A stretch of 35,272 nucleotides of DNA from the NCBI GenBank assembly GCA_031288395.1, contig JAITRM010000016.1, forward strand, positions 1 through 35,272, written 5' to 3'. A program made the translations under genes and the position numbers. Each line of letters starts with the position of its first letter. Position 1 is the stretch's first letter. The stretch is from Holosporaceae bacterium. Lineage in GTDB: Bacteria; Pseudomonadota; Alphaproteobacteria; UBA3830. Shown piece by piece: positions 1-25,901 of the stretch. Under the pieces are notes generated by a model that searched no databases, was not told where the DNA came from, and saw only the letters and a list, made by a program, of their open reading frames with translations.

Positions 1-540
1 GTTTCCCTTCATATTACAAAAGGTTAGCACATCTTGCCGATATTCAACGCTATGGTACATAATTGCTCTCCTGATAAACCAATAGCATCGTAACACATTT
101 TTCCCAACGCGACTATATAACAAAAAACTTAAGCTATGCGCCTGTTTTGTCACTCTGTAACAGGTCATGCCGCCAGTCCAGCACGGCAATAATAAATTAG
201 CTATAGCCCTTAACCTTTTTACATTGTTTGTTGAATGATGTGTTATGTCTAAAATTTTTTCTGCTTCAACAATTATATCGTCACTGATTTTAAGAGGTAA
301 AGCCCTAAATAAAGCAGAACCAAGCGATTTTCTTTTTCTTGGATCCTCAAAATACGCTATTAATTTTCCTGCAGTATCACTGGTTATATATTCTGCTGCG
401 ACAGCTTCTTTCACCATTACTATCGATTCTTCTTTTGTTAACCGACATTGTGATTCCTGGCTAAAAACAAAACATAAAACTAATATAGTAATAGAAAAGA
501 TTCTTTTATTTTGTTGATATATCTTAATAAGCCACTGCAT
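1..540 (-). CDS. Hypothetical secreted or membrane-anchored protein, partial (C-terminus off the left edge)
   Basis: The minus strand is open for 180 codons from an ATG at 540-538 to the window edge with no stop, so the gene is cut by the boundary. A Shine-Dalgarno-like AGGAAG lies just upstream (about 546-551 on the plus strand as its complement). The first ~30 residues hold a charged start (Lys, Arg) followed by a hydrophobic run (ITILVLCFVF) and SQESQC, which fits a signal peptide or N-terminal anchor. The rest is basic and mixed, with further Cys residues, and I do not recognise a family. Codons are much more AT-rich than in the housekeeping genes nearby, suggesting a fast-evolving or acquired gene. 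An opposite-strand frame at 245-517 is taken as its shadow. Confidence 0.6.
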   Translation of the reverse strand, partial: MQWLIKIYQQNKRIFSITILVLCFVFSQESQCRLTKEESIVMVKEAVAAEYITSDTAGKLIAYFEDPRKRKSLGSALFRALPLKISDDIIVEAEKILDITHHSTNNVKRLRAIANLLLPCWTGGMTCYRVTKQAHSLSFLLYSRVGKNVLRCYWFIRRAIMYHSVEYRQDVLTFCNMKGN

Positions 541-560
541 TTTATCTTCCTAAATTACTA

Positions 561-661
561 ATACCAAACGTCACTACTAATTTTTTATCGCAAGCCAGGA
601 GGCCGCTGTTGCTGAGCGAATCTCAAAAATCTTTTCGTTAATTAGAGATGACGTTTGGTAT
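561..661. repeat. ~101-bp element with 22-bp imperfect terminal inverted repeats (MITE-like)
   Basis: ATACCAAACGTCA at 561-573 is matched by its exact reverse complement at 649-661. The match resumes after three mismatches with CTAATT, giving 19 of 22 bases. The ends are bordered by TA on both sides (TA-CCAAACG and CGTTTGG-TA), as expected of a TA-targeting Tc1/mariner or IS630-type insertion. The interior encodes nothing. It lies directly upstream of the partial minus-strand gene and could supply its promoter or leader. No second copy was seen in this window, so mobility is inferred. Confidence 0.5.
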
Positions 662-1264
662 AAGTTTTTTATTGAGATTATCCCAGTAGTGTTAAAGCCA
701 AGTTAAGATGATAAAAAATTGGATAACTTAAAAATAAGCGCAAAAAATGAGTCCTTTTTCATTTTAGGTTTTTAACAGACTAACTCATAAAGAAATGTCA
801 AAATTTTATATTGCCAATAGATCGAGTGGGTTTAACGAACCATCGATGCAATCGCAATATTCTCCTCAATCCACAGCTATTAGCGACCTAAACCACAAAA
901 CCAGCTACAATCCAGCAATTTCTCCCCATCTCCTCAAACTCCGCGGAGAACCCGCAGATTTCGCAGCTCTCTCGGTATCGGTATGCATTCTCTAAACCAT
1001 TTTTCAGAAAAATCAGGATTTGACAGACGAAGTCTTCGGTAGCAATGGCTGCGGAGATTGTACTTTCCAAATCTCCAGGTACGGTTTTATGGAGAATGGA
1101 GAGGAATTTGGGTGAAAAAAGGCATGTTTTGACAGGAAATTAGAGATCAGAAACGAGAATTAGGCAAATGACGGCAACGTCGAGAAAGCCTATGATACAG
1201 CGTATTTCAGCGACCTATTAACACATGGGCAATCTTAAATTCTCCAGTATGTCTATTGCTAAAA
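662..1264. other. Gene-free intergenic stretch
   Basis: About 600 bases between the inverted-repeat element and tRNA-Ser. Short open frames at 795-995 (+) and 888-1070 (-) overlap each other, have no recognisable family and lack convincing ribosome binding sites. The bases from ~900 to ~1130 are less AT-rich than the flanks and might be a decayed gene, but no family could be read. No strong hairpin-plus-U terminator was found downstream of the tRNA. Confidence 0.4.
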
Positions 1265-1358
1265 TGGCGGAGGAAGAGGGATTCGAACCCTCGATACGGC
1301 TTTTCAACCGTATGGCGGTTTAGCAAACCACTGCCTTCAGCCACTCGGCCATCCCTCC
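1265..1358 (-). tRNA. tRNA-Ser, anticodon GCU
   Basis: Read on the minus strand, the sequence starts GGAGGGA and ends TTCCTCC-G-CCA, giving a 7-bp acceptor stem with one G-U pair and an encoded CCA. The anticodon loop reads TTGCTAA (anticodon GCT, decoding AGC/AGU). A long variable arm (CATACGG...CCGTATC) and the T-loop GGTTCGAATCC confirm a class II serine tRNA. It begins 23 bases after the cvpA stop, so it is probably processed from the same transcript. Confidence 0.95.
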
Positions 1359-3590: not shown

Positions 3591-4551
3591 CGTAACTTCC
3601 CAACAAAAAATAATAAAAACTGTATATTAGCTGCAAAACGGCGCGCTTTGTTTTGTAAATTATGCTCGCCACATAGATATTCACGGATCCTATCATTACG
3701 CTTGGGGATATCTTTATCTGGGAGTATTGGAATTTCTGTTTCACCATGCGCGGCTCCACTCCGGCGAATTTAAAATTAAATTCCCATGGAGCAGTGTAGT
3801 AATGGTCAACCGGCATTCTGATCGGATAGAATTTCTGCAACAATTTGTGGGCTGCGGAACGATTTATCAGGTAGCAACCGGCGTGTTTTACGTCGGTTAA
3901 GTAGGCGGCAAGAAATTTACCTTTGGGCAAGGGTGCAATTTTCATCGGATGGCCGCGGTGATTTAATTCAAAGCCAACCACATCCCACAGATCTTTCTTC
4001 CGGATGAGCAGCTGGATCGTTTCGGACAACTCTTGTGGATCAAAGTAAGCGTCATCTTCGAAAATCACGGCGAACTCATTGTCGGACTCCAAAAATTTGC
4101 GCCAAGCCTTTTCGTGACTCAGGGAGCAACCGATGGTTCCGGCTTCGGGCAGCATTCGAAAATACTTTTTGTAGGTACCTAGGTCCGCGACAGATCCAAT
4201 ATACTTCTCTGATAGAAGTGTGCCGTCTACTGCGGAAATTCGCTCGAAAGGGCAGCCTAGACGCTCTATTTTTGGCATAACGCTATCAAGTCTATCCGTC
4301 GCCCTGTCTAGGTTCAAAAGATATGCCATGACTTTATCGTTGGAATACTCTCTAAATTTCACCGGCGAGTTGCGAGAATTTCGAAACAACCTTAGATGCA
4401 TGAACAATGGAAGAAAAGGCAGATGAGATAAAATTTTTCCGCTGCAGGAACTTAAATTTAGGATTATTACAAACACATGCGCGCCGAGGGCAGTGACGGC
4501 AAGCATCAGTAGATAGTAGGTGGCGAAAGTTAAAATACGGATTCGGTTCAT
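3577..4551 (-). CDS. Glycosyltransferase family 25 (LPS/LOS-type) with N-terminal membrane segment
   Basis: 324 residues from the chosen ATG. An upstream in-frame ATG at 4575 lies inside the end of xthA, whereas the 4551 ATG has an AGGA Shine-Dalgarno ~13 bases upstream. Residues ~7-33 form a hydrophobic anchor. GT25 signatures follow: AYLLNLDRATDRL (76-88), ISAVDG (105-110), the GTIGCSLSHEKAW segment (138-150) and the acidic EDD (165-167) for metal and nucleotide-sugar binding. Family members add hexoses to lipooligosaccharide cores (LpsA/LgtB type). Donor and acceptor are not readable here. Its place between two DNA-repair genes is unusual, and both ends overlap or nearly abut neighbours. 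Confidence 0.85.
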   Translation of the reverse strand: MNRIRILTFATYYLLMLAVTALGAHVFVIILNLSSCSGKILSHLPFLPLFMHLRLFRNSRNSPVKFREYSNDKVMAYLLNLDRATDRLDSVMPKIERLGCPFERISAVDGTLLSEKYIGSVADLGTYKKYFRMLPEAGTIGCSLSHEKAWRKFLESDNEFAVIFEDDAYFDPQELSETIQLLIRKKDLWDVVGFELNHRGHPMKIAPLPKGKFLAAYLTDVKHAGCYLINRSAAHKLLQKFYPIRMPVDHYYTAPWEFNFKFAGVEPRMVKQKFQYSQIKISPSVMIGSVNIYVASIIYKTKRAVLQLIYSFYYFLLGSYDGEE

Positions 4552-11834: not shown

Positions 11835-12305
<471 letters not shown>

Positions 12306-12309
12306 TATT

Positions 12310-14403
12310 ATGGCCAGAAAAACTCCCATAGAAAAGTACAGAAATATTGGCATTATGGCTCATATAGACGCTGGTAAAACCACCACTACGGAAAGAATTT
12401 TGTTCTACACTGGCCGTTCTCATAAAATCGGCGAAGTTCATGAAGGCGCGGCCACCATGGATTGGATGGAACAGGAGCAGGAGAGGGGGATTACGATTAC
12501 GTCGGCCGCAACGACCTGCTACTGGAGTGGCCATAGGATCAATATTATAGATACTCCCGGGCATGTTGATTTTACTGTGGAAGTTGAGCGTTCTCTGAGA
12601 GTTTTGGATGGAGCTATCGCGGTTTTTGACGGCGTAGCCGGTGTGGAGCCGCAATCGGAGACCGTTTGGCGCCAGGCGGATAAGTATCACGTTCCCCGGA
12701 TCTGTTTTGTGAATAAAATGGATAGAACGGGCGCAAATTTCTTTCGCTGCGTGGATATGATCGTCGATAGATTGGGGGCGCGCCCCGTTGTTATGCAGTT
12801 CCCGGACGGATTGGAGAGCGATTTTATTGGAATAATTGATGTTTTAAGTATGAAAGCGCTTCACTGGAAGGATGAAACCATGGGCGCCGAGTATGAAACT
12901 GTAGAAATCGGCGAAAAATACGCGGAACAGGCGGCGAAGTACCATCATGAATTGGTGGAAATGGCCGTGGAGCAGGACGACGCCATTATGGAGGCATATC
13001 TTGATGGAAAGGAGCCGACTGCCGAGCAATTGATAGCGTGCATTAGAAAAGGCGTCCTAAATGGCGCTTTTGTGCCGGTGTTTTGCGGTAGCGCTTTCAA
13101 AAATAAGGGTGTTCAGACGCTGTTGGACGGCGTTGTCAACTTTTTGCCGTCTCCGACTGATATTGGGGCAATCAAAGGAATTAGCTTGGACGATGGCTCT
13201 GAAGTTAAAAGGGAGCCCAAGGACGAAGAGCCCCTGTCAGCGCTAGCTTTCAAGGTTATGACGGATCCATTTGTGGGGTCTCTGACGTTCGTTCGCATAT
13301 ATTCCGGACGTTTGGAGAGCGGAAGCTACGCGGAAAATGCTTCCAAGGGAGATCGCGAGAGGATTGGCAGACTGCTGCTTATGCATGCCAATAATCGGGA
13401 AGACATAAAGGAGGCGTATGCCGGGGACATAGTGGCAGTTTGCGGTTTGAAACTTACCACTACCGGCGACACATTGTGTTCCACCGCAAAGCCGGTGTTG
13501 CTGGAAAAGATCGAGTTTCCAGATCCGGTCATAGAAGTTGCAGTTGAGCCAAGATCCAAGGCCGATCAGGAAAAGATGGGCGTTGCGCTTTCCCGTTTGG
13601 CCGCGGAGGATCCGTCGTTCAGAGTTAGTTCCAACCATGAAACTGGCCAGACCATCATCAAAGGAATGGGGGAGTTGCATCTGGAAATTATTGTGGATCG
13701 CATGAGGAGGGAATTCAATGTTGAAGCTAACGTTGGAGCACCTCAGGTTGCGTATAGGGAAACAATTTCAAAGGCTGCGGAGATAGATTACGTACACAAA
13801 AAACAATCTGGAGGAGCTGGTCAGTTCGCAAAAGTTGTGATACAGTTCGAGCCTGGTGATTATTCCTCTGGGCTTCAGTTTGAGAGCAAGATCTTTGGGG
13901 GTTCCGTTCCGAAGGAGTATGTACCGGGTGTTGAGAAGGGATTGAAGAACGTCGCGGAATCAGGCTGTCTGATAGGGTTCCCCATAGTGGGGATAAAGTG
14001 TTCCCTGGTGGACGGCGCTTTTCATGATGTCGACTCCAGTGTGTTGGCCTTCGAAATTGCTGCCCGTTGCGCTTTTCGAGAGGCGATGACAAAGTGCGGC
14101 GCGAAGATATTAGAGCCGGTAATGACGGTGGAAGTTGTGACTCCGGAGGATTATATGGGTGATATTATCGGAGATCTCAATAGTCGTCGCGGTCAGGTTG
14201 TTGGTATGGATCAGAGAGCGAACGCCCGCGTTATATCGGCCGAGGTTCCGTTGGCTGAGATGTTCGGGTATGTCAATACGTTGCGCTCCATGAGCCAGGG
14301 TAGGGCACAGTATACGATGCAGTTTGCGCGCTACGATGCTGTTCCATCGCATGTGGCGGAGAAGGTTATAGCCGCGCACAAGGGTTTGGTAAAGGGTGAA
14401 TAG
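12310..14403 (+). CDS. fusA: Elongation factor G
   Basis: 697 residues from the ATG at 12310 ([20 protein letters not shown]); the frame is open further upstream inside rpsG but that is not EF-G. The GTPase promotes translocation of tRNA and mRNA on the ribosome. G1 AHIDAGKTT, the switch region [11 protein letters not shown]3 DTPGHVDF and G4 NKMD are intact. The later domains include the conserved GMGELHLEI, and the C-terminal region ends with the [17 protein letters not shown] segment. Full length and undamaged. Confidence 0.98.
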
Positions 14404-24572: not shown

Positions 24573-25901
24573 ATGGCTAATGGAAATTTTGCTCAAGGTT
24601 TAAGTCTAGAAACGTTCTCAAAGGCTTCGGATTTGAAGAAGAGGCTTCTTTTTACGTTGATGGCTCTTTTTGTTTATAGAATTGGCACTTACATTCCGCT
24701 TCCGGGGCTTGACCCGATCATCATCGAGGATCTTGCGCGGCGGCACATGGCCGGCGGCGGCATCTTGGGCATGTTTAATATGTTTTCCGGCGGAGCCCTG
24801 AGCCGTATGACGGTTTTTGCTCTAAATCTAATGCCCTATATTTCCTCCAGCATTATCATCCAATTGTTCACTATGGTTTCTCCAACGCTGGAAGCCCTAA
24901 AAAAAGAGGGAGAGTCCGGCCGAAAGAAAATTCACCAATACACCAGATATCTGACGATCTTCGTTGCCAGCCTCCAGGCCTATGGCATTAGCTTGTTTTT
25001 AATGAACATACAGGGGAGTCCGGTTGTTATCGGCGGCATATTTCCGGTGATAGCGGTTCCGTCTTTGGTTTGCGGCACTCTGTTTCTCGTTTGGCTCGGC
25101 GAACAGGTTACTTCCCGAGGAGTTGGAAATGGATCCTCTCTGCTGATTTTTGCAGGTATAGTAGCCAATATGCCGGCCAGTATCGCGAGTATCTTCGAGT
25201 TGGGAAGGGCTGGCGCGCTCTCGATGTTTGCCGTCATAACGATATTTGCCGTGGCGATTGCAGTAATTGTATTTGTCGTGTTTATGGAAAGGGCTCAGAG
25301 GCGCGTCACCATTAATTATCCTCAAAGACACGCCGCGCTTGCACAGGGAAAAAATATGGACGCCAGTCACCTGCCCCTAAAAATCAATTCCGCTGGCGTG
25401 ATTCCTCCGATTTTTGCCTATTCGTTGCTGTCCCTGCCGCTGATGTTAGCAAATTTTGTGAAGGATTCGGACAACGAGCTCTTGGGGTCGTTTGTAATGT
25501 TCTTTAGTCGTGGCGGCGTTTTGTTTTCCGTCATTTTGGTGACGATAATAATGTTTTTCTCATTTTTCTATACGGCAGTGGTCTTTAATCCAACGGAAAC
25601 GGCCGATAATCTAAAAAAAGCAGGTGGATTTATTCCCGGCGTGCGTCCTGGGCAAGCGACGGCTGATTATCTGGATTATATCCTGACCAGATTGACAACG
25701 GTCGGAGCTTTGTACATGGCGTTCGTGTGCATTCTGCCGGATATCATGAATGCAAAATTCGGAGTTCATTTCATATTTGGTGGGACGGGAATTTTGATTA
25801 TAGTTGGCGTCACCATTGATACCATATCCCAGGTTTATACGCATTTGCTCTCGCACCAGTATAGGGGCGTGCTGAAGAAAATGGAAAAAAAGAAAAGATG
25901 A
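24573..25901 (+). CDS. secY: Protein translocase subunit SecY
   Basis: 442 residues with about ten hydrophobic segments, the standard SecY. It forms the SecYEG export channel in the inner membrane. The first transmembrane region contains RIGTYIPLPGLD, the plug and helix region GGILGMFNMFSGGALSRM, and the cytosolic loop VNYPQRHAAL-like stretch (TINYPQRHAALAQGKN). The C-terminal GGTGILIIVGVTIDTISQV is intact. Its stop overlaps the adk ATG (ATGA). Confidence 0.97.
   Translation: MANGNFAQGLSLETFSKASDLKKRLLFTLMALFVYRIGTYIPLPGLDPIIIEDLARRHMAGGGILGMFNMFSGGALSRMTVFALNLMPYISSSIIIQLFTMVSPTLEALKKEGESGRKKIHQYTRYLTIFVASLQAYGISLFLMNIQGSPVVIGGIFPVIAVPSLVCGTLFLVWLGEQVTSRGVGNGSSLLIFAGIVANMPASIASIFELGRAGALSMFAVITIFAVAIAVIVFVVFMERAQRRVTINYPQRHAALAQGKNMDASHLPLKINSAGVIPPIFAYSLLSLPLMLANFVKDSDNELLGSFVMFFSRGGVLFSVILVTIIMFFSFFYTAVVFNPTETADNLKKAGGFIPGVRPGQATADYLDYILTRLTTVGALYMAFVCILPDIMNAKFGVHFIFGGTGILIIVGVTIDTISQVYTHLLSHQYRGVLKKMEKKKR

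Follow-up and report, generated by a model that had tools for sequence, protein, structure and literature searches.

Close to the start of a 35,272-nt contig from a Holosporaceae bacterium (JAITRM010000016.1, assembly GCA_031288395.1; the whole stretch analysed is referred to here as the window), a palindromic sequence lies beside a partial gene. What kind of element is it, and what might have moved it there? A first-pass annotation placed a MITE-like element at 561-661, with 22-bp inverted ends and TA borders, and compared it with Tc1/mariner or IS630-derived miniature elements. An element is indeed present, with a proper extent of 562-660, or 99 bp, and a different border. The features concerned, with three from the rest of the window, are as follows.

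1..540, minus strand: partial gene beside the element, 180 codons, running off the contig; not part of the element
559..561, no strand: left copy of the target duplication, TAA (from the sequence, the TNA rule of 82 elements and two empty sites)
562..582, plus strand: left terminal inverted repeat, TACCAAACGTCACTACTAATT
562..660, plus strand: MITE, TACC...GGTA, 99 bp (from a second copy on contig C30 and from copies in different flanks)
640..660, minus strand: right terminal inverted repeat, read on the minus strand as TACCAAACGTCATCTCTAATT
661..663, no strand: right copy of the target duplication, TAA (on the same basis as the left)
1268-1358, minus strand: tRNA, the sole Rfam match in the window
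12226-14403, plus strand: elongation factor G gene
24573-25901, plus strand: SecY gene

The inverted ends are identical at 19 of 22 positions when counted inward from 561 and 661, exactly as first described; the arms as a whole are 39 nt long with a 77% match. No gene lies inside 562-660, and no coding capacity was seen there. The strand is able to form a long stem, and it folds far better than dinucleotide shuffles of itself (z-scores of -4.76 and -4.95 as RNA and -5.43 as DNA), and none of 200 shuffles equals it. A chance palindrome can be dismissed, because a second copy (C30:9686-9790, 105 bp at 99%) is found in the same genome, designated G000 (787 kb in 37 contigs).

Within its 99 bp the C30 copy differs from the window copy at one position, and it is flanked by TTA on both sides. 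It sits at the 3' end of an ORF, to which it provides the final codons and the stop; this ORF has, besides itself, one distant homologue in 41 genomes (G004, 31%, residues 1-286), so that no empty site can be read there. The two near-identical copies have probably moved recently. At a third location (C18:1622-1679), 37 bp of a right end are followed by TTG and then by 16 bp of an inverted left end, an arrangement read as one copy inserted in another at TTA and partly deleted later. An intact element carries ...AATTAGTAGTGACG... at the position of this junction, so the TTG would be a TTA altered at one base. Allowing two mismatches at most, G000 has 19 end-like sites, as against 6 for the reversed pattern; six of the 19 belong to the window, C30 and C18 copies. 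A 60-bp derivative with ends TACTATTCC and TACCAATCTTCATT and flanks TTG/TTG is found on contig C3 (L073/L202), ending near 4487.

DNA-similarity searches at E 0.01 gave matches in 12 of 100 genomes, G000 included, and exact pattern matches among named genomes fell on six contigs of Holosporaceae bacterium MAGs. Going by sample codes, a termite gut might be the source. Relatives in the window's own family, to which G031, G035 and G037 belong, carry further copies. The end motif TNATACCAWNCNTCATT, with one mismatch allowed, has 91 matches in G006 and none there as a reversed control; the counts are 16 in G004, 15 in G031, 12 in G034, 10 in G028 and 9 each in G000 and G035, with 0 or 1 for the control. 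The suggestion that such elements can be abundant therefore suits some relatives, G006 above all, but not the window's genome, with its two whole copies and one rearranged end pair. In viral contigs, a pattern scan and a protein scan found no relative. G006 also contains a further palindromic repeat of ~94 bp, starting near TATACCCAATCAC and ending near GTGATTGAGTATA, in 14 different contexts (L099, L146, L151, L166, L168-L171, L173, L177, L187, L189, L191, L193); this is probably another MITE family.

The stretches around ends yielded 102 raw end pairs, of which 82, from nine genomes and with the majority from G006, were retained as elements, with lengths of 96-99 or 88-91 bp. The other 20 were left out, being either false pairs with overlap or pairs differing in length, some of the latter probably real (60, 79, 80, 102, 107 and 125 bp). 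A second listing of pairs, restricted to TNA flanks, was used for lengths and left out of the duplication count. Some G006 elements stand in rows, a single TNA separating neighbours.

Flanks are identical over 3 bp in 61 of the 82 elements and non-identical in 21. Both are TNA in 74, with the middle base agreeing in 61 of these; in 10,000 shuffles the mean was 30.8 and the maximum 46. Elements that do not abut another give the same picture: identical flanks in 40 of 57, and an agreeing middle base in 40 of 51, where shuffles reach 33 at most. Two empty sites can be read as well. In G035:C32 an element lies inside another MITE copy (GCAAATCA[99]TCAGAGATGG), and the joined sequence has 11 uninterrupted contexts in the same genome at up to two mismatches; in G006:C51 an element lies inside another repeat (CACCAATAA[99]TAAAATCC), the joined sequence having 14 such contexts, again in the same genome and at up to two mismatches.

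These observations bear directly on the TA borders originally proposed. A classical IS630/Tc1-type MITE would here be the element CCAAACG...CGTTTGG with a 2-bp TA duplication, the outer TNA reflecting target preference only. A TA does lie directly inside the TNA on both sides of the window element, the partner transposase described below is of the IS630 family, and TA duplication is known from bacterial members that have been studied, for example ISY100 (PMC2170065). A TA duplication does not, however, yield the two empty sites, each of which has one TNA and no TNATATNA, and the middle base of the TNA agrees far more often (61/74) than in any shuffle. The duplication is therefore 3 bp, and the 2-bp alternative is extremely improbable. 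Where IS630 elements are expected to duplicate a TA dinucleotide, this family has TNA instead, and to judge from its flanks the element belongs to a TNA-type branch of IS630, not to the classical type.

A lone end in G016 leads to an ORF that matches HTH_32 (37 bits, cut-off 33.7) and further helix-turn-helix models. Homologues of this transposase are present in seven of 61 genomes (G001, G003, G006, G008, G013, G016 and G031); the search, at E 1e-4, gave no match in G000. Its C-terminal part scores 143.3 bits against the NCBIfam IS630 model NF033545 (cut-off 100), the N-terminal part alone scoring 64.9, and it has D, D and E at spacings of 78 and 31 residues. The IS630 element is ~1.1 kb long, with the transposase in two frames and an end, TACCAnnCnTCAtt..., similar to the MITE ends; two copies are readable end to end (G031:C43, 1110 bp; G013:C10, 1108 bp). 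In both, the frames split after an A-rich stretch (L217/L267 and L212, respectively), as if by programmed frameshifting, and the direction of the shift is unlike between the two.

The ends themselves agree to varying degrees. In G006, the IS and the main MITE have left ends that are identical over the first 21 bases. Over its first 26 bases the right end of the window element matches the IS left end at 20 positions, for G016 and G006 alike; the partial IS copies in these genomes agree with the window ends at 19-20 of 26 positions, and the end-to-end copies at only 12-16. Eleven of 13 readable IS ends abut TNA, the exceptions being GTA (G006:C36) and TAG (right end, G000:C9). The flank pairs of the end-to-end copies are not identical: one flank is cut by a contig edge in G031:C43, and those of G013:C10 are TAA and TGA.

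No complete IS of the partner group is assembled in G000. Contig C9, however, opens with a sequence close to the G013 transposase tail: the codons IEESLQTFLDCLQDSTIAQLCHNNYLDI, followed by a stop and by an end, ...GAGGATTGGTA. The likely driver thus is or was present in this genome. Other IS630-type transposase pieces are found at both ends of contig C36 (1-234, L023; 24535-24648, L024) and probably represent another group; these copies (PF13358) were considered as the driver and set aside for their weak fit to the partner transposase (36.7% and 50% over short stretches).

With a length below 500 bp, terminal inverted repeats and no transposase gene, with repeated copies and target duplications, and with ends matching those of an autonomous element (at best 20/26 for the window copy and 21/26 in G006), the window element is a MITE, a non-autonomous DNA transposon of 99 bp. 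Further copies and related transposase ends, on which the first-pass annotation had staked its reading, are both found. Its derivation from IS630 is supported by the IS630 elements with similar ends in seven relatives and by the C9 tail, the sole transposase with matching ends being IS630 by NF033545; the Tc1/mariner-type TA has to be given up. A 99-bp MITE of an IS630-type partner, moved into TNA with a 3-bp duplication, is the best explanation of the locus and very probably the right one. The partner transposase presumably moves the MITE: encoded by the longer element with similar ends, it would bind both terminal repeats, excise the MITE and insert it at a TNA target, whose copying would leave 3-bp direct repeats. 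This cut-and-paste route is proposed from the known chemistry of the IS630 family.

IS5-type (PIF/Harbinger-like) elements make 3-bp TNA or TWA duplications, and a MITE of such an element would have the TNA duplication that is observed. DDE_Tnp_1 transposases are also present in 27 of the 49 genomes covered. Among 30 loci of this family, the one covered among those of IS5 in Pfam, no matching end pair is seen, however; G000 and G004 bear the MITE without a DDE_Tnp_1 match; and IS630 elements with matching ends do exist. Within this coverage, an IS5-type origin is very unlikely.

Alternatively, the element could be a structured repeat kept for an RNA or protein function, like the Rickettsia palindromic elements or REPs. 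Its strong hairpin potential is in keeping with this, the 99 bp plus 3 bp amount to 34 codons, and the C30 copy does supply the end of an ORF. The Rickettsia elements are likewise short palindromic repeats (~150 bp) of intracellular alphaproteobacteria, and are noted for in-frame insertion into genes (PMC10969869). Frequent insertion of that kind is not seen in the window family: once removed, 22 of the 82 elements lie within stop-free spans of at least 100 codons, compared with 70% of control points placed at random in these stretches; the majority are thus outside long frames. Of 71 elements with a length of 99 bp, 22 lack any stop-free frame; the lineage of 89 bp would cause a frameshift; and the left and right ends are not the same in G031 and G004. 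The window family also has a target duplication and a transposase partner, unlike the Rickettsia elements, and with its 99 bp and 3-bp duplication it differs from REP/RAYT systems, which are 20-40-bp palindromes without target duplication. A kept structured repeat is accordingly very unlikely, and the IS630-driven MITE remains the preferred reading.

Among known miniature elements, RUP of Streptococcus pneumoniae has a target duplication of TA. Like the window element it is a repeat of ~100 bp (107 bp), and its ends resemble those of the IS630 element IS630-Spn1, by which it may be moved in trans; its sequence and host are different (PMC3049150). Among autonomous elements, ISHsp2 of Halomonas is described as having a two-frame IS630 transposase and a duplication other than TA, but this is a 4-bp TTAA, not TNA, and the element has its own transposase (PMC3606827). 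Also close are ISDrpg7 and ISDrpg8, two elements of the IS630 family in Deinococcus radiopugnans, reported with three-nucleotide direct repeats TGA/TAA/TCA (PMC10017437). They share with the window family an IS630 transposase and ends starting TAC; they are transposase-bearing with the end TACGGACTCCGATTAA (PMC10017437), whereas the window element has 99 bp, no gene and the end TACCAAACGTCA. A TAA duplication is described for the eukaryotic Fot elements (PMC7386202). In plasmids, the C-terminal part of the partner transposase matches 1240 records at E 1e-5, and 12 of 25 listed IS630 loci from these were examined. In six of the 12 the ends are TACC or TACG and the repeats are TNA: two from Methylobacterium indicum (TCA), two from Nostoc (TAA, TTA), and one each from Deinococcus (TCA) and Sphingobium (TTA). 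An Acidithiobacillus locus has other ends and flanks fitting TA, and the remaining five have no clear ends. Given the plasmid loci and the Deinococcus repeats already in print, the 3-bp rule is not new.

The element was also proposed to provide the 5' leader of the partial gene. The start codon of that gene is 21 bp from the element, which makes such a role possible by position only: promoter-like sites at the element are no more frequent than chance (2, with 2.1 expected), a terminator scan likewise gives a chance result, and the likely ribosome-binding stretch, located by eye, is outside it. A Pfam search with the partial gene gave no match. By blastn, window positions 41-124 within it have 78-83% identical stretches elsewhere in G000 (101-177 of L286, on C9; 1488-1550 of L202, on C3), both adjoining an end of the element family, and the gene seems to belong to a family of repeated genes or pseudogenes. 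The tRNA, elongation factor G and SecY genes form a conserved and apparently ordinary gene neighbourhood.

The constant length of the element poses a separate puzzle. Nine lineages (in G000, G004, G011, G013 and G028, three in G006 and one in G035) are each 99 bp, with 15 to 33 of the middle 49 bases agreeing per pair, except for G000 and G011 (42). Two of the G006 lineages together have 57 copies of 99 bp with 253 differences from consensus, and G006 has two more copies, of 98 and 97 bp. Another lineage, of 89-91 bp, is found in G031, G034, G035 and G037 and once in G011; G028 has two copies of 79 and 80 bp, and G035 two of 108 and 109 bp with a short internal repeat. Exceptions measure 100, 102, 107 and 125 bp, or 40 and 60 bp in the case of shortened copies. 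Shared descent accounts for part of the constancy, a relationship being visible among several of the nine lineages. Steps near 10 bp, or about one helical turn, suggest helical phasing. It is conceivable, if somewhat doubtful, that the spacing of the ends is under selection for DNA helical phase, such short elements moving only with both ends on the same side of the helix; helical phase would then set a discrete size ladder for MITEs of a TNA-type IS630 transposase. The recurrence of one size, 99 bp, brings a question on the mechanics of very short transposons within reach of a test.

The titles and abstracts searched describe no such MITE in Holosporales, a result that says little about literature outside them. 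For element annotation, a TNA duplication means that tools assuming TA would misplace the boundaries of such elements. To what is in print on this IS630 branch, the empty sites add proof that it duplicates TNA and not TA. The reduced genomes of the Holosporaceae gain a MITE family together with its likely driver, and part of their repeats is thereby explained.
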